From positions 1 to 64,000 of the forward strand of contig NZ_JACGWS010000009.1 in NCBI RefSeq assembly GCF_014397005.1: 64,000 nt of DNA, in the 5' to 3' direction. Positions 36,845-46,695 of the stretch are shown one piece after another (the stretch's first letter is position 1; every line of letters starts with the position of its first letter). The translations under genes were made by a program, and so were the position numbers. Below the pieces are notes generated by a model that did not search any database, had not been told where the DNA came from, and was given only the letters and a program-made list of their open reading frames with translations. The DNA comes from Kordia aestuariivivens. GTDB taxonomy: Bacteria; Bacteroidota; Bacteroidia; Flavobacteriales; Flavobacteriaceae.

Positions 36845-37018
36845 CTATTTCTCAGTAGGACATTCTGGACAAGAATGACAACTAAGATTGCATGTACATA
36901 TACCAACAGGAATTGAGGTTCGTCCATTGTCTAATTTTCCACCTTCAATAATGAGGCGGTCTAGTTTACTAATCGATTTCTTGTTTAGTACTAAACTTTT
37001 TGAAATTACTTTTTTCAT
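36845..37018 (-). CDS. Lanthipeptide-type precursor, 57 aa
   Basis: A short ATG-initiated frame too small for most gene callers. The leader MKKVISKSLVLNKKSISKL is the LNKK-type leader common in Bacteroidota, ending at EGG (residues 25-27). The core of 30 residues begins KLDNGRTSIPVG and has five cysteines in CTCNLSCHSCPEC. Thr and Ser next to Cys could form thioether rings if a LanB/LanC pair acts on it, but none is in the window. Predicted cytoplasmic precursor, then exported. Confidence 0.6.
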   Translation of the reverse strand: MKKVISKSLVLNKKSISKLDRLIIEGGKLDNGRTSIPVGICTCNLSCHSCPECPTEK

Positions 37019-37343
37019 GATATAATAAATTTGGATTATTCAATAATATACAAATAAATACCAGACTTCGTATACCATATATCTATATGCGACACAAACT
37101 AAGGATTCTAATAAAGCCAATTAAACTGACGTGAAAAAACAACAACAGTTCTAGTAACAATGTCTTATCAAAAAAATCATGGTACGGTTACTAAATACAA
37201 TAGCATAAGGAAATTATCTGACATGAAGCGCATTGTTTTTGATAGCTTATGTATGGTGTTTCCGTAAGATATTGGTTACGTGTTTGCTTAACTTTATAGA
37301 GTAATATTTTAATTATTCTATAAACCACAAATCAAACTTAACC
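37019..37343. other. Intergenic DNA before the metalloprotease
   Basis: No coding frame or strong RNA fold. A TTCTAGTAACAAT word (37150-37162) also occurs at 40973-40985, both upstream of an accessory gene. Confidence 0.4.
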
Positions 37344-38471
37344 ATGAAAAAAGTTTTTAATTACCAGCTAGTGTTCATTTTGATGGGCTTGCTCTTTGTA
37401 GTAGGTTGCCAAAATGATCCAGAAGAATTAATTGAAGAAGCAACCACAACAGCGCGTGTTGATGTAAAATGGCTTGCTTCAGACAACCATCCTGTGGTGC
37501 AGTTATTGTATAGCAGAGGGTATGAAAAAGGCACTATTTATGAAACAGAAGAACACTTCTTAGCGCCACCAGATTTATTGTACAGCAAAGACATTAATGA
37601 TTATGACTTGTCAGACGATGGGAGCAATGCTAAGCAAGCGTTTAACACAGGGAAGTTAGTGTCCTTAAACAGAATGCGCATCAATGTATTTATTGATAGT
37701 TCTGTTGGAACAAATTTAACAACAGATTCCGTAAATGCTATTGCCCAACTAAACGGAATCAATAACTGTGCGTTGTTTTTTGTGCGTGTATTCAATGCGA
37801 ATCAGGCAAACATTACCATTCGAAGCGATTTTGGCGCAGAAAGTTCTAACGTATTAGGAAGAGCAGGATTCCCATCTAACGGACGTGCATTTAACACCGT
37901 TACATTAAACGTAGATACATTAGGTGCTTATGGATCTACATTAAGAAGAAATGTAGTCATTCATGAATTGGGTCATTGTGTAGGACTAAGGCATACTGAT
38001 TGGAGCGCCAACGGCGAAGGAGGTGCAGTTAACATTCCAGGCACAAGTGCTAACGATACAGGATCAATCATGTGGCATACAGCTCGTGGTGGTGGTGCAT
38101 TTTCTGCGGGTGATTTAGTAGCTTTTAGAGCCTTATTTCCACGTGCTTTGCGTATCGATGTTGTCAACGTAATTGACGATTATGACTATGGCGAAATTTA
38201 TATACAAGACGATGTATTTGTAGATGTCTTTACAAACGGAAGCTACACTACCTCAACAACCTTAAACAGAAATGTAAATGTTAGCTATCGCATCAATGTG
38301 CAGGAGTACAACCATACTTCAGGAAGTTACTATTACAACCGAAACCGTACTTTAACGGCAGGAAGCAGTCGGTATTTTATTGATGAAGAAGAAGAAGAAT
38401 GTTCGCCGTATCAAGGTGAAACCTGTACAGAGGAATATTTAGAAATCAGGTTGGCATCGTCCATATTATAA
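37344..38471 (+). CDS. HEIGH/M57-type zinc metalloprotease lipoprotein
   Basis: A 375-residue lipoprotein (LLFVVGC lipobox, lipidated Cys22) with a metzincin-like zinc site HELGHCVGLRH near residues 207-217, matching HExxHxxGxxH. A downstream segment SIMWHTARGGGAFSAGD and an N-terminal insertion fit dual-action metallopeptidases of this type (M57). The C-terminal extension is strand-rich (FVDVFTNGSYTTSTTLNR) and ends in an acidic DEEEEECSPYQ stretch with paired cysteines. Anchored in the outer membrane or surface-exposed. Neighbours are peptide precursors, so a role in processing them is possible but unproven. Confidence 0.88.
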   Translation: MKKVFNYQLVFILMGLLFVVGCQNDPEELIEEATTTARVDVKWLASDNHPVVQLLYSRGYEKGTIYETEEHFLAPPDLLYSKDINDYDLSDDGSNAKQAFNTGKLVSLNRMRINVFIDSSVGTNLTTDSVNAIAQLNGINNCALFFVRVFNANQANITIRSDFGAESSNVLGRAGFPSNGRAFNTVTLNVDTLGAYGSTLRRNVVIHELGHCVGLRHTDWSANGEGGAVNIPGTSANDTGSIMWHTARGGGAFSAGDLVAFRALFPRALRIDVVNVIDDYDYGEIYIQDDVFVDVFTNGSYTTSTTLNRNVNVSYRINVQEYNHTSGSYYYNRNRTLTAGSSRYFIDEEEEECSPYQGETCTEEYLEIRLASSIL

Positions 38472-38511
38472 CACGATTCATCACCTACTAGAAACACTTA
38501 TTTTTATATGT

Positions 38512-38541
38512 AAAAGCCCAATGATATCGTTGGGCTTTTTT
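38512..38541 (+). terminator. Terminator after the metalloprotease
   Basis: AAAAGCCCAA-tgatatcg-TTGGGCTTTTTT hairpin 40 bp after the stop. Confidence 0.85.
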
Positions 38542-38653
38542 GATTTGTTAGACAGTTAGACTTGTTGGATTGTGTTTCATTTCGACCCAGCTCAATGACC
38601 TTATTTCTGAACACCGAACACCGAACACTGCATTTCGACCTTGCTCAATGACC

Positions 38654-38696
38654 TATTACTGAACACTGAAAACTGAAAACTGAAAACTGAAAACTC
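38654..38696. repeat. 7-bp tandem repeat (ACTGAAA)n
   Basis: Consecutive copies of ACTGAAA and relatives. Same family as 39052-39197 and 46462-46556. Confidence 0.8.
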
Positions 38697-38720
38697 TTCT
38701 TCTTATGGTTTTTTTAGTGC

Positions 38721-38873
38721 CTAATGACAGTGGCAAATAGATGCCGGTCTTGATCGTTCGCAATTGGCTCTTGTGTAATTACTATCAAGAGGTGCTTGCA
38801 ATCCTCCTGTAAGGTTGTAATTAGAAATTGATTTCTTTTGAAGTTGTAACGATGTTAATCCTTTCTTTTTCAT
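38721..38873 (-). CDS. Lanthipeptide-type precursor, 50 aa
   Basis: Leader MKKKGLTSLQLQKKSISNYN, ending with the double glycine at residues 23-24 (NLTGGLQAP). A core of 26 residues contains two Ser/Thr and three Cys (the last pattern ICHCH). Too short for standard gene callers. A heptamer repeat array lies just downstream. No biosynthetic enzyme nearby. Confidence 0.6.
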   Translation of the reverse strand: MKKKGLTSLQLQKKSISNYNLTGGLQAPLDSNYTRANCERSRPASICHCH

Positions 38874-39051
38874 AGTAATATGTTTTAGTTAAACCTAAAA
38901 TTACTAAAACAAACGAATGTTGTATTACGGGAATACCGTAGACTTATTGGGTGTTAAATTTGTTGTACATCATAAACGTAGTCTTCGGCTCCGCTCAGAC
39001 TTCTTTTCCGTGCATCCGAGTGCTGCATTTCGACCCAGCTCAATGACCTCA
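38874..39051. other. Repeat-associated spacer
   Basis: No gene. Contains GCATTTCGACCCAGCTCAATGACC (39024-39047), a word also at 38580 and 38632, and leads into the 7-bp array. Confidence 0.5.
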
Positions 39052-39197
39052 TTTCTGAACATCGAACACTGAAAACTGAACACTGAATACTGAATACTGA
39101 ACACCGAACACTGAACACTGAGAACTAAACACTGAACACTGAACACTGAACACTGAATACTGAAAACTGAATACTGAACACTGAACACTGAAAACTC
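39052..39197. repeat. 7-bp tandem repeat, imperfect (GAACACT/GAAAACT/GAATACT)
   Basis: About twenty heptamers with a single variable base. Long open frames here encode only FSVQCSV-like repeats and are artefacts. Confidence 0.85.
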
Positions 39198-39238
39198 TTC
39201 TTATTATTATTGCCTCAGTAATACATACCATGAGCCAT

Positions 39239-39264
39239 AAAAAAAGCGAACCGAAGTTCGCTTT
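39239..39264 (-). terminator. Terminator after a precursor gene
   Basis: AAGCGAAC-cgaa-GTTCGCTT with T-tract on the minus strand. An almost identical hairpin ends another precursor at 44755-44782. Confidence 0.8.
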
Positions 39265-39288
39265 CATTCTATTAATAAGTAAACATGT

Positions 39289-39450
39289 TTACTTAATATG
39301 ACAACCTAAGCCGCCTTCTTGCACTGGAACAGAGTTGCATGTTACTTCGGTAGCATGTGGTGCTTGTGTTCCACCTTTAAGACGGTTCGTTTTTAAGATA
39401 GCTACTTGTTTCTTGTTCAATTGTAAGGTTTGTACATTTCTTTTTTTCAT
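39289..39450 (-). CDS. Lanthipeptide-type precursor, 53 aa
   Basis: MKKRNVQTLQLNKKQVAILK leader, double glycine in RLKGGTQAP (residues 26-27), then a core with two cysteines (EVTCNSVPVQEGGLGCHIK). The ATG at 39450 is preferred over an upstream GTG or ATG since MKKRN is the canonical leader start. Ends in a strong terminator on the same strand. No maturation enzyme in the window. Confidence 0.65.
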   Translation of the reverse strand: MKKRNVQTLQLNKKQVAILKTNRLKGGTQAPHATEVTCNSVPVQEGGLGCHIK

Positions 39451-39687
39451 GATATAAGGTTTTTTGGTTATGAAACTAAAGTAAGAAAGTAAGCTCACAA
39501 TATGTTACGGGAAAACCATCGTTTGCATCTGCTAGTTTTTTCGTAAGAAAAATTAGAAGCGAGTACGGATGTTTTGCCTGAATTTGCCTCGTTTTATCAC
39601 TATTCATACTATTTGTTTTTAAAAAATAACTGAGATTCATCATATGAAACACGCTTGCAGCAGCCTTATGTAGTCAAAAGTTTTCGT
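39451..39687. other. Intergenic DNA
   Basis: Promoter region of the precursor gene plus AT-rich spacer. No further gene seen. Confidence 0.4.
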
Positions 39688-39885
39688 GTTGCACGTCTGC
39701 GAGACGCTTTCAAATCCGTTGGAAAGTCTGTTGCACGTCTGCGAGAACGTTTCCAACACGTCGGAAAGCTCCCTGCAGGTCTGCGAGACGTTTTCAAATG
39801 CGTCGGAAAGCTTCCTGCAGGTCTGCGAGACGCTTCCAAACGCGTTGGAAAGCTCCCTGCATTGCTGCGAGAAGGTTTCAAACGG
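39688..39885. repeat. 42-bp tandem repeat, five copies
   Basis: Units of 42 bp built on GCACGTCTGCGAGACGCTTT and TCGGAAAGCTCCCTGCAGGT. Because 42 is divisible by three, four frames stay open (such as RLRDAFKSVGKSV repeated), but no other coding sign is present. GC-rich compared with its surroundings. Confidence 0.85.
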
Positions 39886-39960
39886 CTTTTTATTGCGAAT
39901 TATGCAATAAAAAGCTAAAAAGTGAACAAAAAATTATTAATTCTTTAAAATCGATGAATT

Positions 39961-40737
39961 ATGGAAACACCAGTTTTCTCTCGCTATCGTAATAGCGAAT
40001 TTTTACAATACATGAAAGATGTATTAGAATTAGTCAACGCGCATGACGTTGCAACATTACAGTTAACGGCACAACACAGTGTCTTAACTACAGTAACCGA
40101 TCAAATGGATGATTTGTTTCAGCAGGAACAGAGTAGTGGTATTACCCAAGAACTGATTGATTTAGATACCCAACGCGATAAAGCGTTTATGGGAATTAAA
40201 GCAATTTTGGAAGGCTATCAATACCACTATGATGAAGCTATAAAGAATGCCGCACGTAATTTGTTGTTCAACTTGAATAACTACGGTACCAACATTCCAC
40301 GGATGAATTACCAAGCAGAAACTGCCGTGATAGACAGCATGTTGTCTGATTGGGAAACGGAAACAAAACTAGTCGCAGCTATTACCACGTTAAAACTTGC
40401 GGATTGGATTGCAGAACTAAAAACGGCAAACGCAACATTTAACGATCGGTACTTGGCACGTGTTTCGGAAACAGCAGCCAATCCTGCTACGAGTTTTACG
40501 GCTATCCGCGAAGATGGTACAATAGCTTACCGCAAATTGGTATCGCATATTGAGGCACATGCTACGCTTGGAAGCAACGTTATTCACCAAGAGTTGGTGA
40601 GTGAGGTAGGCGTCTTAGCAAAGCAGTACAACCAAACGGTTGGGTTGCGACTTGGCTCAGATGCTACTGATGAGGTTTCGGATGGCATACAAGACGGAGA
40701 AGATACTAATGGTTCGGATGGAGAAACGAAGAGTTAG
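39961..40737 (+). CDS. DUF6261 family protein
   Basis: A 258-residue soluble, helical protein that fits the DUF6261 family of Bacteroidota (no known function). Recognisable features are FSRYRNSEFLQYMKDVLEL at the start, QRDKAFMGIKAILEGYQYHY, and KNAARNLLFNLNNYGTNI. The C-terminal tail is acidic and Gly/Asp/Ser-rich (DEVSDGIQDGEDTNGSDGE). It follows a 42-bp repeat array and is followed by a terminator. Confidence 0.85.
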   Translation: METPVFSRYRNSEFLQYMKDVLELVNAHDVATLQLTAQHSVLTTVTDQMDDLFQQEQSSGITQELIDLDTQRDKAFMGIKAILEGYQYHYDEAIKNAARNLLFNLNNYGTNIPRMNYQAETAVIDSMLSDWETETKLVAAITTLKLADWIAELKTANATFNDRYLARVSETAANPATSFTAIREDGTIAYRKLVSHIEAHATLGSNVIHQELVSEVGVLAKQYNQTVGLRLGSDATDEVSDGIQDGEDTNGSDGETKS

Positions 40738-40785
40738 TATATTCTGTTATTACGAGGAGCGGTAGCAACGAAGTAATCTGTTTAT

Positions 40786-40833
40786 CAAAAACACTCAAAT
40801 AGTTTTATGGCTAGTTGGGTGTGTTTTTTTTTG
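40786..40833 (+). terminator. Terminator after the DUF6261 gene
   Basis: AAAACACTCAAATAG..CTAGTTGGGTGTGTTTTTTTT imperfect hairpin with T-tract. Resembles the terminator at 41394-41436 (loop words CAAATAG and TTTATGG/TTTATAG). Confidence 0.75.
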
Positions 40834-41119
40834 TTGGTGTATATTGTTTTGAGCAAAAAACATCCAACTGCACACACAAATTTTCCGAGAAGTTAGTATC
40901 TTTAACACTCCCTCAAAGTAGTAGCAAAAGGCTACGTACTTTTTCTTTTTAGTTTGCATAATCAAAAAACCTTCTAGTAACAATAATGTCTTGTCTATAG
41001 TAGTAGTCTGCTATATAATAGTCTATTAGCAATATGAAAAAACACAGAGCGTAGATGCTCTGACTATTCTTTGTGTTCGTTTGGTATTCAGAGTTATAAT
41101 TAAAATTAAATAATTGATT
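40834..41119. other. Intergenic DNA before a bacteriocin-like gene
   Basis: Contains a hairpin AACACA..TTGTGTT (41041-41077) with a nested AGAGC..GCTCT stem at 41046-41061, possibly a terminator or leader structure. No gene. Confidence 0.45.
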
Positions 41120-41377
41120 ATGTTAAAAAACATTTTAAAATTACAAGGAGTTCAAGAGTTGAGCAAACAAAAGCAAAAGGCTGTAAGCGGTGGTAGAACC
41201 GAAATTGATGGTGTTTGCTGTTTTAACAGTGCCGATTATTATATGGAAAGTGTTCCTAACTATGCAGATCCTGCGTATGAAGGGTATTTGACACATTCAC
41301 AGCGTCATGATATTTGGTTACAAGCGTATGATGGTTGTATGGCGGGTATGGTTAATGCATGTCTTCCTGCGCAGTAA
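41120..41377 (+). CDS. Double-glycine leader peptide precursor, 85 aa
   Basis: MLKNILKLQGVQELSKQKQK leader ending AVSGG (residues 23-25 about), followed by an acidic core with aromatic residues (RTEIDGVCCFNSADYYMES, YDGCMAGMVNACLPAQ) and four cysteines. The GG leader indicates export and cleavage by a peptidase-containing ABC transporter, not found in the window. The start is the ATG at 41120, since the TTG at 41114 would only add three residues. Followed by a strong terminator. This leader style differs from the LNKK type of the other precursors. Confidence 0.7.
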   Translation: MLKNILKLQGVQELSKQKQKAVSGGRTEIDGVCCFNSADYYMESVPNYADPAYEGYLTHSQRHDIWLQAYDGCMAGMVNACLPAQ

Positions 41378-41393
41378 GTAAACGTATATATTA

Positions 41394-41436
41394 GAAAGCC
41401 ATCCAAATAGTTTATAGCTGTTTGTGTGGCTTTTTT
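41394..41436 (+). terminator. Terminator after the 85-aa precursor
   Basis: AAAGCCAtcCAAATAG..CTGTTTGtGTGGCTTTTTT hairpin with T-tract. Confidence 0.8.
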
Positions 41437-41499
41437 AGTAAAGCCAAAAAAGATCGTTAAATTTGAGAATTATAAAAACTTTAAAATTGCTGCATAATT

Positions 41500-42012
41500 A
41501 TGGGAGAATTTAGATACCAATTATTTCCAAGGTCATTTGGAATAACAGAACAAGTTGAAGAAGCAATAAAATGTTTTGAAAATAATTTCAACCTAATAGA
41601 TTCACACACCCACAATTATGGTAGTAATGAAGTTCTTGAAATTGTGAGAGATGAATTAGAAAGTATCGGATTTAAAATAGAAAAGAGTAAAAAGAAAGAT
41701 GACAAAATTAGAGTTCCGGTTCTATTTGGATTAAATAATAAAATTGATAAATTTTTTGATGCTGATGGTATAAGTGAAGATAAAACGATTGTTCTAGAAG
41801 TTGAAGCAGGAAGAGCATATCGAAATAATCAATTTTTAAAAGACGTATTTCAAGCTTGTATGATGCCTTCTGTTGAATATCTAATTCTAGCTGTAAGAAA
41901 TACCTATGCTGGAACAGATGATTTTCAAAGTATATTTGCTTTTTTAGAAACGCTATATGTTAATGGAAGATTAAAGTTGCCTCTAAAAGGAATTGTTTTA
42001 ATTGGATATTAA
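41500..42012 (+). CDS. PD-(D/E)XK-like nuclease-fold protein, 170 aa
   Basis: Probably a small nuclease of the restriction-endonuclease fold. The core is FFDADGISEDKTIVLEVEAG, where Asp plus Glu-x-Glu could supply metal ligands. The usual Lys of the motif is not clearly in place. It is followed by the helix NNQFLKDVFQACMMPSVEYL and the hydrophobic strand LILAVRNTY. The C-terminus (LKLPLKGIVLIGY) matches a widespread small family whose members I recall as uncharacterised. Context is a nuclease-rich stretch (zinc-ribbon peptide and HNH gene follow), so a defence or DNA-repair role is an inference. Confidence 0.65.
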   Translation: MGEFRYQLFPRSFGITEQVEEAIKCFENNFNLIDSHTHNYGSNEVLEIVRDELESIGFKIEKSKKKDDKIRVPVLFGLNNKIDKFFDADGISEDKTIVLEVEAGRAYRNNQFLKDVFQACMMPSVEYLILAVRNTYAGTDDFQSIFAFLETLYVNGRLKLPLKGIVLIGY

Positions 42013-42024
42013 AAATTGATAAAA

Positions 42025-42249
42025 ATGAATACTAATTGTGATTTATGCAACGGTAAAGGCTGGATTTGTAGTGCTGCCTATTACTCAAAATTTGTTAAAG
42101 ACGGCACTACAATAATTGAAAAGTGTGATGAATGTGAATTTTTTTTAGATGACAATGAAGCTTCTCAATTTGCTTCAAAAACTGAAAATGTATTATCTTT
42201 TAAAATTCAAAATGGAATTAATGTGAAAATTGATTTTCATTTGAATTAA
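42025..42249 (+). CDS. Small zinc-ribbon protein, 74 aa
   Basis: Starts MNTNCDLCNGKGWICSAA and has a second pair at KCDECEFFLD. The two CxxC pairs, about 30 residues apart, predict a zinc ribbon reminiscent of the DnaJ-type CxxCxGxG repeat. No other domain. It starts 12 bp after the nuclease-like gene and is likely cotranscribed. The in-frame TTG at 42016 is not used. Function unknown. Confidence 0.6.
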   Translation: MNTNCDLCNGKGWICSAAYYSKFVKDGTTIIEKCDECEFFLDDNEASQFASKTENVLSFKIQNGINVKIDFHLN

Positions 42250-42264
42250 AATTTATTCTTGTAA

Positions 42265-42349
42265 CTGCGTTAGGGATTGGAGAGAAAATCCTTTTGTGAG
42301 GCACGAACAAAAGATTGTAACGGAAAGCCCGACCCTTAGGGTAACGCCC
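42265..42349 (+). ncRNA. Structured RNA candidate, copy B (Flavo-1-like?)
   Basis: Second copy of the element at 1598-1663. Layout: GCGTTAGGGATT, two imperfect stems (GGATTGGAG..AAAATCC; TTTTGTGAGGCACGAACAAAA), then AACGGAAAGCCCGACCC-tta-GGGTAACGCCC. It sits exactly between the zinc-ribbon gene and the HNH frame and seems to have replaced the normal start region of the latter. An RNA role or a mobile palindrome are both possible. Confidence 0.5.
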
Positions 42350-42368
42350 AAAAGATTTAAGATACTTA

Positions 42369-43313
42369 CTGATAGATAGTTTAAGACTTTATTCAGATAA
42401 TGTAGTTTTTATAGATGGTAATAATCCATATCGATTTTCTATTAATAAAAAGACATTTTTTGTTTTAATCAAAAATGTACACGAATCGGGAGATGGAAGA
42501 GAAAATCAAGATGAGTGTAGAATTCAAGTTGCAAAGTCTAAAAGTTTTAATGTAGCATTAAGTTCGGGAAATGATGTAATTGTATTGGGCTATTTTGCAG
42601 ACGAAAAAGTCTTTACCGCTTGGAATCCTTATCTTATGAGAGAAAGATTTAATCAAAAACAGACAGTATCTCTTTATTCAAGATTTTCAACTCAAAAATT
42701 AGCCGCAAAGGAAAAAATAGGATCTTACAGAGATAGTAATGGGCAATCTGTGATAAGTTTTGTTCCTGACTATCTCGGTTTATATTTAGAAAACTTAAGT
42801 TTTATTCATTTAGTAACCGATATAGAATTAAAAGAACTAGTAGAACAATCAGACTCCTTAAATAACGACAATGCTGATGGAGAATTTGATTCATCTGAAG
42901 GAAAACTAACTATAACGCATGCTAGACAAAAAAGAGACCCTAGCTTTAGAAAGAAAGTCTATGACGCTTATAATAATAGATGTGCAATGTGTGGAATAGG
43001 ATTAGAGTTAATTGAAGCTGCTCATATTGTTCCTCATTCGCATGAAAAAGGTACGGATGAAATTGATAATGGCATGGGACTTTGCGCCTTACATCATACT
43101 GCTTATGATCGTTCTTTAATTTACTTTGATGAAGAATTAAATATTCTTATCAATGAAAATAAAATGGAATATTTGGAAAAAGTAGGTCTTGATTCTGGTA
43201 TCAGAAAATTTGAGAAATTAGCTTTTGATAAAGTTCAGATTCCAAAAAATCATACATTAAGACCTAATATTGGAAATATTAAAATAGCAAATCAAACTAG
43301 AGGGATATTTTAG
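42369..43313 (+). CDS. HNH endonuclease, 5' end damaged or with a non-ATG start
   Basis: The protein-like frame runs from near 42345 to a stop at 43313 with no ATG, GTG or TTG before residue 72. I give the CTG at 42369 as nominal start. The N-terminal region (SLRLYSDNVVFIDG, INKKTFFVLIKNVHESGDG, DVIVLGYFADEKVFTAWNP) matches the usual N-terminal domain of this HNH family, so only the first few residues are missing. The HNH core is CAMCGIGLELIEAAHIVPHS with CALHHTAYDRSLI. DNA-cleaving enzyme, perhaps restriction or mobile-element related. The RNA element directly abuts it, so the gene may be truncated by that insertion. Confidence 0.7.
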   Translation: MIDSLRLYSDNVVFIDGNNPYRFSINKKTFFVLIKNVHESGDGRENQDECRIQVAKSKSFNVALSSGNDVIVLGYFADEKVFTAWNPYLMRERFNQKQTVSLYSRFSTQKLAAKEKIGSYRDSNGQSVISFVPDYLGLYLENLSFIHLVTDIELKELVEQSDSLNNDNADGEFDSSEGKLTITHARQKRDPSFRKKVYDAYNNRCAMCGIGLELIEAAHIVPHSHEKGTDEIDNGMGLCALHHTAYDRSLIYFDEELNILINENKMEYLEKVGLDSGIRKFEKLAFDKVQIPKNHTLRPNIGNIKIANQTRGIF

Positions 43314-43416
43314 TATACGTGATATTCAATATATTTTAAGTTTTAATGGTAGTAAAGAATTTTTATACTAACCATCTGCATAAGAGTTGTTGGTGAATTT
43401 CGAAGCTTATAAGATA

Positions 43417-43758
43417 TTATCTTAATACGGTTTCTTCCTCACTTTTACTTTTTTCAATCCTATGCTGTGCAACACTCCTTAGCCAAAAAACATCCATCAA
43501 AAGCAACACATAAAATAGTCCTATAAAATGATTAGGAATATTGGATTGATTTACACGAATTACATGATGATGTTCAATGGAACCTTCCCAACCCAATCGA
43601 TAAAAAAGTAAAAGAGCAATAAATATAATTAATATCCTTGAAGTGCTTTCATAGAATTTAGGTTTCTTATACGCTAAGAAGATCAATATTGTTGCACTTA
43701 TCACAGCTATAATAGCCGTATGGATTAAGGTAACTTCTAATAAAAAATCTCCAATCAT
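43417..43758 (-). CDS. Small membrane protein, 113 aa
   Basis: Three hydrophobic segments (IHTAIIAVISATILIFLA, SRILIIFIALLLFYRLGW, FIGLFYVLLLMDVFW) with charged ends. It starts with a TAATG overlap on the stop of the RadC-type gene, so translation is probably coupled to it. Family not recognised. Inner membrane. Confidence 0.7.
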   Translation of the reverse strand: MIGDFLLEVTLIHTAIIAVISATILIFLAYKKPKFYESTSRILIIFIALLLFYRLGWEGSIEHHHVIRVNQSNIPNHFIGLFYVLLLMDVFWLRSVAQHRIEKSKSEEETVLR

Positions 43759-44381
43759 TATTCCAATCCTTTTATATCCCGAATATACAAACCAGTCAAT
43801 TCTTTGATCGTTTGATTGTCAAAACCTTTCGCTTTCATCTTACGCGCCACTTCCATCGCTTTCGCTTTCTCAGCATTCTTACGTTCATAGCGCAATTGCA
43901 TTTCCTTCATTTGGTCGCTTTCCCGATCTTGAATTTCATAGAGCCCGCTTTTGCGAAGTGCTGACATAATGCCTTTATCCTTAAAAGAGGTAAAGCCACT
44001 TTCGGTAATAATTAAATGATCTATGACGTCAATATTAATGAGCTTACCAACTTTTAAAAGTCTGTCGGTAATGTCTTTATCACTTGCAGATACTTTCAAG
44101 TTTCCACTTGGATGGTTGTGTACCAATATCATGCGTACGGCAAGTTTGTAAATTCCCATACGGAACACATCGGGCGGAGATGCATTTACTCTGTTTTGCG
44201 CGCCAATGGCAATGAGTTCTACAAACAAAATGCTATTATCAGCTTTGAGTCCTACAACCCAAAAGTGTTCTTGCGCTCTGCGAATTTTATTCTGACGCAG
44301 CAGTATTTGTTGCATTACACTGTATACGTCGTGCGCATTGAGGATTTGTATTTTTTGTGCTTCGGTCAGTCGTACGTTCAT
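43758..44381 (-). CDS. RadC/JAB-domain protein
   Basis: A 207-residue protein with the JAMM metal site HNHPSGNLKVSASDKDI (His-x-His-Pro plus Ser and Asp), as in the RadC family. Members resemble deubiquitinase-type JAB domains and occur on mobile elements and near DNA repair genes, but the enzymatic role is unclear. The extended C-terminus (RYERKNAEKAKAMEVARKMKAKGF) is helical and basic. Couples to the small membrane gene. Located in the accessory region. Confidence 0.88.
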   Translation of the reverse strand: MNVRLTEAQKIQILNAHDVYSVMQQILLRQNKIRRAQEHFWVVGLKADNSILFVELIAIGAQNRVNASPPDVFRMGIYKLAVRMILVHNHPSGNLKVSASDKDITDRLLKVGKLINIDVIDHLIITESGFTSFKDKGIMSALRKSGLYEIQDRESDQMKEMQLRYERKNAEKAKAMEVARKMKAKGFDNQTIKELTGLYIRDIKGLE

Positions 44382-44755
44382 ATTTCAAATATACATTATT
44401 AATTCAAAATGTGTCACATCGAGCGGAGTCGAGATGTTAAATGTTAAATTAAAAAGTAAAGCGTTCATAAATTTACTAATTTAGGATGTATGATTAGTTG
44501 TGTATTGAGATTTTAGTAGTGAGAAGTGAGGTCATATCTTTATAAGGTTTCTAATTTACAAATAACGAACAACAAACCAGTAAAAAACAAATCAACAAAA
44601 AACAGAAAACAAACAACAGGAGCAAAGCGACTAACCGCTACCTCAAAAAACTGTTTCTCGATACAATTTTTCTTCATTTCATTGCAAAAAATCACTCGAA
44701 ATGACGTTTTTTGATCGCCAAGAGCCAAGAGCCAAGAGCTGAGCGAAGCCCAAAC
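44382..44755. repeat. Repeat-rich intergenic region
   Basis: Contains TCGAGCGGAGTCGAGATG (44417) and the CTCGATACAATTTTTCTTCATT element (44656-44706) shared with 13329 and 47212. No gene. Confidence 0.6.
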
Positions 44756-44782
44756 AAAAAAAAGCGAACCGAAGTTCGCTTG
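44755..44782 (-). terminator. Terminator after a precursor gene
   Basis: AAAGCGAACCgaAGTTCGCTT with T-tract on the minus strand. Same hairpin as at 39239-39264. Confidence 0.8.
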
Positions 44783-44793
44783 TTCATTATCAA

Positions 44794-44934
44794 TTACAAC
44801 GGATAACAACAATGTTCTCGTGTACCGTTTTGCATATTGGAGTGTGAATACCCTTTTCCTTTTACATGTGTAGTGTGTAAGGTAGAAATTGCTTTCTTGT
44901 GAAGGTTCAATACTTTTAAACGTTGCTTTTTCAT
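44794..44934 (-). CDS. Lanthipeptide-type precursor, 46 aa
   Basis: Leader MKKQRLKVLNLHKKAISTLH, then a region lacking a clear double glycine (THVKGKGYSHSN). The core ends MQNGTREHCCYPL with two adjacent cysteines. The leader is of the same LNLKK type as the others and the terminator is shared with 39289-39450, so I count it as a relative. The processing site is unclear. Confidence 0.5.
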   Translation of the reverse strand: MKKQRLKVLNLHKKAISTLHTTHVKGKGYSHSNMQNGTREHCCYPL

Positions 44935-45043
44935 ACTAAAATGGTTTTAAAAATTAATAATGATAAAATGTAAGCATATAAAAGCGTGAACCCGTGCGAG
45001 GTTTCACAAATAGTTTAAAAATACGTGCCTGTAAGTACGCGGA

Positions 45044-45289
45044 CTATCGATAGCCATCCATACAAAGAGAAGCAGGATTTGTATCTGTGTCTACAAATTT
45101 AGTTTTTCCAACACCTCGAGGACAAGCAGCAACAGAGTCGCACTTCATTAACTCAGAACATCCTGTCGCCGTAACTTCCTGTATTGTACGAATAATAGCG
45201 ATGGTAATATCAGTACCACCAGAAATTGTTTGCAAATTAGAAATTGTTGCTTTTGTTAAGCTTAAGGTTTTTAGATTCTTTTTTTTCAT
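45044..45289 (-). CDS. Lanthipeptide-type precursor, tandem paralog 1, 81 aa
   Basis: Leader MKKKNLKTLSLTKATISNLQ with double glycine in TISGGTDI (residues 24-25). The core is about 55 residues, with Cys in TGCSELMKCDSVAACPRG and a conserved end KFVDTDTNPASLC. Thr/Ser-rich, compatible with thioether formation. Part of a three-gene tandem array, with the same cysteine spacing in the paralogs and conserved 5' flanks. No LanB, LanC or exporter in the window. Confidence 0.7.
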   Translation of the reverse strand: MKKKNLKTLSLTKATISNLQTISGGTDITIAIIRTIQEVTATGCSELMKCDSVAACPRGVGKTKFVDTDTNPASLCMDGYR

Positions 45290-45363
45290 AATTGTGGAGT
45301 TTTATAATGGTTTTACTAAGTTTCTTTTAAATGATTATCATTTTAAATGTTAAATTTTGTACT

Positions 45364-45440
45364 TACCTAATACCTAATACCTAATACCTAATACCTAATA
45401 CCTAATACCTAATACCTAATACCTAATACCCAATACCAAG
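45364..45440. repeat. 7-bp tandem repeat (ACCTAAT)n
   Basis: About eleven copies between precursor paralogs 1 and 2, with a degenerate end CCCAATACCAAG. Confidence 0.9.
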
Positions 45441-45504
45441 TACTTTAATAAAGCGATTGAACAGCTACGGAATTTAGTAATGATTTAGAAATTTAGACCT
45501 ATTA

Positions 45505-45750
45505 TTAATGACGTATACAAGCGGAAGCAGGTTTTGTATCGATATTTACAAATCTTGTTTTTGGAACACCTACGGGGCAAATTCCATCAGAATCACATGC
45601 AGCAAATTTTGAACAAGTGCCTACTGTTGCATAATCTGTGGTGCGAATAATAATAGTAAAAATGTCTGTTCCACCGTTAAGAGTTTTTGCGGTTAAACTA
45701 GAAATGGTTGCTCTTTTTAGGTTCAATGTTTTTAGATTCTTTTTTTTCAT
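45505..45750 (-). CDS. Lanthipeptide-type precursor, tandem paralog 2, 81 aa
   Basis: Leader MKKKNLKTLNLKRATISSLT, double glycine in TLNGGTDI. The core begins FTIIIRTTDYATVG, then GTCSKFAACDSDGICPVG and the end RFVNIDTKPASACIRH. Cysteine spacing matches paralog 1. The 5' flank TTGTGGAGTTTTAAAATA is nearly the same as in its neighbours. Position is offset by 461 bp from paralog 1. Confidence 0.7.
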   Translation of the reverse strand: MKKKNLKTLNLKRATISSLTAKTLNGGTDIFTIIIRTTDYATVGTCSKFAACDSDGICPVGVPKTRFVNIDTKPASACIRH

Positions 45751-45837
45751 AATTGTGGAGTTTTAAAATAGTTTTATTAAGCTTCTTTTAAATGATTATA
45801 ATTTTAAATGTTGAATTGTAAATGTTAAATTTTGTAC

Positions 45838-45955
45838 TTCCCTAATACCTAATACCTAATACCTAATACCTAATACCTAATACCTAATACCTAATACCTA
45901 ATACCTAATACCTAATACCTAATACCCAATACCTAATACCCAATACCAAGCACTC
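45838..45955. repeat. 7-bp tandem repeat (ACCTAAT)n
   Basis: About fifteen copies between paralogs 2 and 3, with a degenerate tail CCCAATACCAAGCACT. Confidence 0.9.
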
Positions 45956-45965
45956 AATGAATATC

Positions 45966-46214
45966 TTAACAAACAGGACGCGTTTCGGTATCTACTTCAT
46001 TAGTTTTACAAACATTTCCAGTACATGCCGCAACAGAGTCACACTCCATAAACTGAGAACACCCAGTTACAGTAGCTTGCGGAATTGGTATTGTGCGAAT
46101 AATGGTTTTTACAGCAATAATAATACTATCAGTACCACCAGAAATAGTTTGTGTACGTAAACTAGAAATTGTTGACTTTGTTAGGCGTAAGGTTTTTAGA
46201 TTCTTTTTTTTCAT
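45966..46214 (-). CDS. Lanthipeptide-type precursor, tandem paralog 3, 82 aa
   Basis: Leader MKKKNLKTLRLTKSTISSLR, double glycine in TISGGTDS. The core contains RTIPIPQATVTGCSQFMEC, DSVAACTGNVCKTNEV and a final DTETRPVC. It has an extra Cys compared with the paralogs. 5' flank conserved as in the others. The gene is 464 bp from paralog 2 at the start codon. Confidence 0.7.
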   Translation of the reverse strand: MKKKNLKTLRLTKSTISSLRTQTISGGTDSIIIAVKTIIRTIPIPQATVTGCSQFMECDSVAACTGNVCKTNEVDTETRPVC

Positions 46215-46695
46215 AATTGTGGAGTTTTATAATGATTTTACTAAGTTTCTTCTTTGAGTAATTAGAATTTTAACGTAAAAAGATAAAAAGAAAACGCAAC
46301 AATGAACTACGGTTTTACCGTAAAACAGAAAGTTATGGATTGAAAATGAGTGGATTATGGTTTGATCTCGTCTTTGCGAGCGGAGCGATCTACTTATGAA
46401 GAAACAGATTGCCACAAGTTTTTTCAAAACTTTCGGAATGACGTATGTAATTTTTTAGTTTTGAACATTGAACACTGAACACTGAACACTGAACACTGAA
46501 CACTGAACACTGAACACTGAACACTGAACACTGAACACTGAACACTGAAAACTGAACGGAGCGAAGCAATCTCATTCATGGAATGCATTAAGCAGATTAC
46601 TTCAGCAGGAAGGTGCTTCGGATGACGGAATATAGAACAATGTTGGGTTAATTAAACTTGTGGGACATTGAGCTTTATCGAAATGTTGGTCTTTT
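46215..46695. repeat. Repeat-rich intergenic region
   Basis: Holds the conserved 5' flank of paralog 3, then a 7-bp array GAACACT (46462-46556, about thirteen copies), and GAAGCAATCTC-type words. No gene. Confidence 0.7.

Follow-up and report, generated by a model that had tools for sequence, protein, structure and literature searches.

About 240 dispersed precursors of class I lanthipeptide type in Kordia aestuariivivens, probably served by a single LanB dehydratase

We analysed a 64,000-nucleotide stretch of the Kordia aestuariivivens genome (contig NZ_JACGWS010000009.1, positions 1 to 64,000; "the window" below means this whole stretch), which carries seven short minus-strand genes, between positions 36,845 and 46,214, for peptides with a common leader and Cys-rich cores. 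These genes most probably belong to a family of some 240 precursors of class I lanthipeptide type, dispersed over the genome, on which one dehydratase, LanB, encoded on another contig, would act in trans. That this LanB modifies every member of the leader family is what we infer from the sequence data.

An initial annotation of the window had pointed out seven minus-strand open reading frames (ORFs) and one plus-strand ORF with a different leader ending in a double glycine (GG). All of them are present, as follows (aa, amino acids; HMM, hidden Markov model; profile matches in brackets):

36845..37018, minus strand: lanthipeptide-type precursor, 57 aa, leader end RLIIEGG, Cys-rich core (NF038153, E = 0.0004)
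38721..38873, minus strand: precursor, 50 aa, leader end NLTGG (NF038153, E = 0.041)
39289..39450, minus strand: precursor, 53 aa, core TCNSVPVQEGGLGCHIK (our own leader HMM, no NF038153 match); taken from its ATG start, a longer GTG frame being listed too
44794..44934, minus strand: precursor, 46 aa, leader end VKGKG, no GG (NF038153, E = 0.025)
45044..45289, minus strand: precursor, 81 aa, core with CSELMKCDSVAACPRG (NF038153, E = 0.01)
45505..45750, minus strand: precursor, 81 aa, core with CSKFAACDSDGICPVG (NF038153, E = 0.012)
45966..46214, minus strand: precursor, 82 aa, core with CSQFMECDSVAACTGN (NF038153, E = 0.066)
41120..41377, plus strand: second GG-leader peptide type (MLKNILKLQG...SGG), outside the leader family of the seven (only NF038167, E = 0.11)

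The leader described in that annotation is indeed common to the seven, but its motif was drawn slightly too narrowly: 39289 has KKQVA, 45505 KRATIS, 45044 TKATIS and 45966 TKSTIS. GG, which it had assigned to most of these leaders, closes six of them, with GKG in 44794. NF038153, the NCBIfam model of class I lanthipeptide leaders, matches six of the seven genes at E-values of 0.0004–0.07. The Pfam scan found no Pfam family on the eight window peptides and thus no Nif11-type leader. Further copies of the second GG-leader type (MLKNILNLKG...GG) were seen elsewhere in the genome (G000) at C2:149827, C3:39549, C4:19039, C4:19333 and C34:259766.

The size of the family was estimated with a leader HMM seeded with 187 ORFs of the genome, six of the seven window genes among them; 45044, which lay outside the seed, was recovered by the HMM. 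The set grew to 207 ORFs, then to 236 at E < 0.01 after more stretches were added (788 kb), and with four found later to 240, a count that comes from stretches chosen around earlier matches and in which the E-values of the last four, like those of the random control, refer to smaller sets. No residue-shuffled ORF reached E < 0.01 with the same HMM (three at E < 1, the best at 0.02). Because a random control of 20 new stretches (400 kb) was likewise empty at E < 0.01, the list of 240 is probably near complete; this control held one real-looking ORF at E = 0.027, directly downstream of a regulator gene of the type described below, and another ORF at E = 0.46. Genome-wide counts of leader matches, here and below, are lower bounds: NF038153 gives at least 147 matches at E ≤ 10 in the genome, and about 33 places other than the window exceed its cut-off among the matches listed.

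The leader consensus is MKKxxLKxLxLxKKxISxL...GG, and 222 of 236 leaders end in GG. The 236 ORFs occupy 128 loci more than 2 kb apart, and their cores fall into 196 similarity clusters, 169 with a single member. Start regions are A-rich and G-poor, consistently so across 235 upstream regions; a TTG/TAnnTTTG promoter upstream of the precursors showed no enrichment over shuffles. The idea of a combinatorial peptide set served in trans, put forward in the initial annotation, remains the best reading, with the enzymes on other contigs, but the set comprises about 240 genes genome-wide rather than seven.

As had been stated before, the window shows no maturation enzyme in its 40 ORFs of at least 150 aa: 30 matched Pfam families, none of them a maturation family of ribosomally synthesized and post-translationally modified peptides (RiPPs), and 10 had no match. 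A generic methyltransferase and a glycosyltransferase are present among these ORFs. A genome-wide profile search placed none of the LanB, LanC and C39 matches inside the window, leaving its precursors without LanB or LanC in their own cluster. The proposal of the initial annotation depended on lanthionine enzymes and GG-type exporters somewhere in the genome, and it stands in this respect because LanB, LanC and C39 are present: the search for dehydratase, cyclase and peptidase-exporter genes returned a single LanB with a LanC next to it, one split elimination domain and C39 frames, all on other contigs. The main locus, on contig C16, is arranged as follows:

C16 6867-8102: LanC
C16 8113-10368: LanB
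C16 10361-11269: separate elimination-domain protein, the only one in the genome
C16 11358, 13477, 15746, 16140 and 16469: precursors of the LanB locus
Beyond the C16 precursors: two regulators with tetratricopeptide repeats (TPR) and a helix-turn-helix (HTH) domain, then HlyD and a C39-domain frame on the other strand

This LanB (E = 1.5e-151) is the only one in the genome, which is 99.98% complete, and its eight named relatives with 87–91% identity are all from Kordia. It is a glutamyl-transfer-type protein with the elimination domain encoded separately, and its relatives with solved structures include 9g04 (E = 4e-51) and NisB 4wd9 (E = 1e-23). The WCYG and CHG segments, which carry zinc ligands in NisC, are kept in the LanC alignment. 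C39 domains occur in frames of 743 and 748 aa at C16 and C1, and the domain scan reads the C1 frame as C39 plus ABC. Further LanC-type enzymes of the genome are a LanM (DUF4135 and LanC, C34:229372-230421), a HopA1 and LanC pair, presumably class V-like (C44:63261-64340), and a LanC-like protein beside DUF6734 (C17:19933-20520).

The leader and LanB occur together in other genomes. Exactly one LanB was found in each of the 11 same-genus genomes, together with leader matches numbering from at least 123 to at least 150. In a survey of 299 family genomes, in which single weak leaders may be missed, at least 15 have the leader (E ≤ 1e-4) and 25 have LanB, one of these matches (G285) being a 35-position piece. 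Among the matches listed, 14 of the 15 leader genomes have LanB (Fisher p = 2e-16; 2e-14 without the two Kordia), and of the 12 non-Kordia genomes having both, 10 carry a leader no more than 3 kb from LanB. Leader ORFs are also contained in 19 of 20 named LanB loci, the exception being an 8 kb Aminicenantes contig. Another genus of the family, g78 (G087, G297), has many dispersed leader genes and one LanB, among the matches listed.

The Cys/Ser/Thr-rich cores noted before hold for the whole family: Cys occurs in 235 of 236 cores, at least two Cys in 229, and Ser plus Thr equal or exceed Cys in 233. Cys makes up 11.7% of core residues and is found in only 5 of 236 leaders. In 196 cluster representatives, Ser/Thr is enriched at −5 from Cys (246, z = 9.0; Ser alone, z = 9.5) and at +2 (z = 5.3) and depleted at +5 (z = −5.3), and adjacent Cys-Cys is rare in the cores. 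Such a directional spacing is what Cys closing rings onto an upstream dehydro residue would leave as a trace. Long proteins of the window, taken as a control for Cys spacing, hold only 36 Cys and are underpowered.

The window-type cores evolve under constraint, judging from sequence comparison at a place anchored in other same-genus genomes by the window glucosidase (7 of 10 others compared). Relatives of 45044, 45505 and 45966 lie there in G004, G005, G006, G007, G008 and G010, all with CSxxxxCDS, and relatives of 39289, with its core TCNSVPVQEGGLGCHIK, in three genomes (G001, G006, G010); similar cores, MCNSVP...GGIGCH, are found near LanB in two Aquimarina contigs (L051, L052). For ten sequences of the 45044/45505/45966 group, the ratio of nonsynonymous to synonymous substitution rates (dN/dS) in the core is below 1 (0.05–0.79) in all 39 computable of 45 pairs; most pairs are near synonymous saturation, the lowest values (0.05 for G004-G006, 0.12 for G007-G008) belong to the most similar pairs, and 0.79 comes from one pair of moderate dS.

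Several observations weigh against the scheme of one LanB for all. It is a prediction from sequence, and all NF038153 scores in the window are below the curated cut-off of 22 bits. G199 has a leader match and no LanB, and, among the matches listed, 11 LanB genomes have no leader at the threshold and the leaders of G112 and G204 lie only far from LanB. The spacing test shuffles residues within cores, and gradients along the core, such as that of hydrophobics, exist and remain after such shuffling, so part of the −5/+5 asymmetry may be due to them; the sharp peak at −5 is not easily explained in this way. Finally, because a LanM, a HopA1 and LanC pair and the LanC-like protein beside DUF6734 are present, LanB may not be the only enzyme. 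It is accordingly conceivable, at a modest probability, that different precursors are served by different enzymes: LanB, the C34 LanM, the C44 pair or a radical SAM enzyme. These LanC-type loci exist in the genome, and LanC with a nucleotidyltransferase near Kordia precursors, as well as radical SAM-type Kordia clusters, are mentioned in a 2024 paper (PMC11118758). Against this, the leader tracks LanB in other genomes, tracking having been assessed for LanB, and neither the C34 LanM nor the C44 HopA1 locus has a leader within 10 kb, among the matches listed.

We consider it rather improbable that the distant peptides are exported unmodified, with C39 cutting at GG to give disulfide or free-Cys products and LanB acting only on the few precursors that adjoin it. 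C39 frames, a second GG-leader type in the same genome and the position of most precursors away from LanB (236 ORFs in 128 loci) would fit such export, but the co-occurrence of leader and LanB in 14 of 15 leader genomes among the matches listed, the same leader family in the LanB-adjoining precursors, the depletion of adjacent Cys-Cys and the enrichment of Ser/Thr at a fixed offset before Cys speak against it. A reading of the ORFs as decaying or chance repeats without function, to which the richness of the window stretch in tandem repeats might lend itself, was rejected as extremely improbable, since the cores are constrained, no shuffled match reaches E < 0.01 and the A-rich, G-poor start region is consistent (235 regions).

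Under the preferred scheme, LanB would read the shared leader in trans and dehydrate Ser/Thr in many different cores, LanC would close thioether rings with Cys, and a C39 transporter would cut at GG and export the product. Regulation would take at least two forms: about one fifth of the precursors have a palindromic, operator-like site at a near-fixed distance from the start codon, and for some 20 others a membrane regulator encoded directly upstream, with TPR and an AraC-type HTH (TPR-AraC), probably controls, and may sense, the peptide.

The palindrome, TACGG-N5-CCGTA with the longer consensus GTTAATTACGGTnTTACCGTAA, was found upstream of 50 of 235 precursors and not of the other 185; this fraction is partly circular, since these upstream regions also served to refine the weight matrix. 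The 25-mer starts at −72 to −80 from the ATG in 42 of the 50. The lowest score among the 50 is 13.0 and the next score is 7.5, and none of three shuffles gave a score above 12. The analysed stretches contain 75 sites, 56 of which stand no more than 400 nt upstream of a precursor; five sites pass in 400 kb of control sequence. Independently of the matrix, each same-genus genome has 36–88 strand matches to the pattern TAYGGNNWWNCCGTA vs. 2–5 to the reversed pattern (symmetric sites count twice). Three window precursors carry the palindrome:

38922..38946, minus strand: palindrome TACGGTATTCCCGTA, 25-mer start 73 nt before the ATG of 38721-38873, score 18.0
39502..39526, minus strand: degenerate palindrome, 25-mer start 76 nt before the ATG of 39289-39450, score 19.6
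46304..46328, minus strand: palindrome TACGGTAAAACCGTA, 25-mer start 114 nt before the ATG of 45966-46214, farther than usual, score 16.8

Twenty further places of the genome that have the pattern and no known precursor were inspected. At five of these it lies 67–74 nt before non-window copies of the second GG-peptide type, the window copy (41120-41377) having no palindrome; one place precedes a gene new to the leader family, two are inside genes, and the rest stand before secreted proteins, before lipoproteins or before nothing clear. The palindrome is found 72 and 75 nt upstream of two secreted proteins (C1:199701, C4:169955) that resemble each other and are about 500 aa long, and a palindrome-like TATGGTGTTTCCGTA at 37252-37266 lies 92 nt, slightly farther than usual, before the M57 metallopeptidase gene 37344-38471. 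An RNA-hairpin reading of the palindrome was dropped, mismatched stems being common by eye. None of the sensor-paired precursors described next is among the 50 palindrome-bearing ones.

The neighbour family that recurs most often beside the precursors comprises TPR proteins with a hydrophobic segment at the N-terminus, a transmembrane (TM) helix by prediction and an HTH at the C-terminus (28 ORFs in 24 loci). By the HTH domain HMM there are 25 in 795 kb of precursor stretches vs. 3 in the 400 kb control. A leader ORF follows on the same strand within 420 nt (E < 10) in 21 of 25 TPR-AraC ORFs for which the downstream sequence was long enough (20 at E < 0.2, 17 at E < 0.01) and in 33 of the 367 remaining large ORFs in these stretches; since the stretches were mostly chosen for precursors, only this internal contrast counts. 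In named LanB loci of Kordia and Aquimarina, a GG-leader ORF lies downstream of 22 of 25 full-length sensors (one read by eye). Cys is scarcer in the paired peptides (mean 3.1, n = 23) than in the others (4.5, n = 219, p = 0.0004), and IA replaces IS in 9 of 18 paired leaders vs. 31 of 208 others.

Pfam TPR is found in all 25 proteins, and HTH_18 lies after the TPRs (residues 481-562 of 570). By hydropathy, nearly all full-length members have a TM segment that separates the TPRs from the HTH; L045 is without it. An AlphaFold model of a K. algicida member (predicted local distance difference test 85.6, predicted TM-score 0.57) shows a superhelix of TPRs, one long helix that runs through the TM segment, and the HTH; the eukaryotic LGN tops its fold matches, with NprR and Rap at Z of 22–24.

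The pairing of sensor and precursor hints at peptide signalling. It is possible, if somewhat doubtful, that Kordia and Aquimarina carry about 20 paralogous pairs for autocrine signalling, each of a receptor (periplasmic TPR, one TM helix, cytoplasmic AraC HTH) and a downstream GG-leader Cys peptide, within the 240-member set matured by one class I dehydratase. It should be noted that a TPR fold alone does not amount to peptide binding, and that the predicted topology is derived from hydropathy. We give even chances to the alternative, a rival of signalling only, that the paired precursors are ordinary products and that the TPR-AraC protein senses something else and switches on the gene downstream. 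AraC-type regulators often act on neighbouring genes, many different ligands are bound by TPR folds and eukaryotic LGN structures lead the fold comparison, all of which would suit ordinary products; on the other hand, the paired peptides form a distinct subclass, with fewer Cys and IA for IS, and the fold comparison also returns NprR and Rap, which are peptide receptors.

The TPR-AraC proteins share with RRNPP receptors such as Rap and NprR a superhelical TPR part beside the gene of a small exported peptide. In RRNPP receptors, which are cytoplasmic, the DNA-binding or effector part is N-terminal to the TPRs, whereas the TPR-AraC proteins have a hydrophobic segment at the N-terminus, a predicted TM helix and, at the C-terminus, the AraC-type HTH, and their peptide has a GG leader and Cys. 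Two RiPP clusters with TPR genes are noted in a survey of Bacteroidales, which points to TPR regulators that bind pheromones and proposes a role in signalling (PMC10352776). If the signalling pairs are real, they would open peptide signalling in Bacteroidota to direct tests.

Both the leader type and the RiPP richness of Kordia are already published. Class I clusters of Bacteroidetes with the leader type LxLxKx5L-GG, GG and C39 were reported by Walker et al. 2020 (PMC7268733); with the same leader motif, GG end, C39 protease and LanB/LanC, the same chemistry is expected here. That survey covered precursors within seven genes of a LanC-domain gene, whereas most of the roughly 240 found here lie elsewhere, and surveys confined to LanC neighbourhoods miss such a set. 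The features of class I precursors are present, namely a leader model match, ring-capable cores and LanB and LanC in the genome, with enzymes in the same cluster for the C16 precursors only. Bacteroidota genomes with up to 176 RiPP precursors are known, Kordia being named as exemplary (PMC11118758), and a K. antarctica lanthipeptide cluster is listed in the Kordia RiPP literature (PMC11118758; PMC7477175); the accessible text of these two papers makes no link to one LanB, a palindrome or TPR-AraC pairs.

Among known systems, prochlorosins and SyncM (PMC9872173, PMC12328550) are alike in their single promiscuous synthetase, conserved leader and diverse cores, and many prochlorosin genes also lie far from their enzyme (PMC7268733). 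They differ in having 29 (prochlorosins) and 79 (SyncM) precursors and a class II LanM, whereas here a class I split LanB would face about 240 precursors with another leader. As for a single synthetase with many dispersed precursors, we found one LanB and 240 leader ORFs; a LanM is present in the genome, while the leader tracks LanB in a survey that covered LanB. If one LanB does serve all, the gene count would exceed that of the promiscuous synthetases in a 2025 review (SyncM 79; PMC12328550), and a class I split enzyme of such breadth would be useful for peptide engineering. Class I products of Bacteroidota have already been obtained in E. coli with the native tRNA-Glu/GluRS (PMC9993889). 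Neither the ratio of one LanB to 240 precursors nor the pairs of TPR-TM-AraC genes and precursors were found in the open-licence literature, taken without supplements, an absence that is weak evidence; some of the searches were directed at TPR/AraC genes with peptides, none at the palindrome.

Two terminator-like hairpins were read by eye in the window:

39239..39264, minus strand: terminator-like hairpin GCGAACTTCGGTTCGC and T run, 3' of 39289-39450
44756..44781, minus strand: terminator-like hairpin GCGAACTTCGGTTCGC and T run, 3' of 44794-44934

Heptamer tandem repeats (CTGAACA, TACCTAA, CCTAATA, TGAACAC) separate or flank the precursors at 39055-39196, 45364-45437, 45841-45947 and 46462-46557, and a 42/84-bp tandem repeat at 39690-39884 is open in several frames. 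The region 42585-43313 encodes MTaX1 and an HNH endonuclease, with weak likeness to phosphorothioate-DNA restriction proteins.

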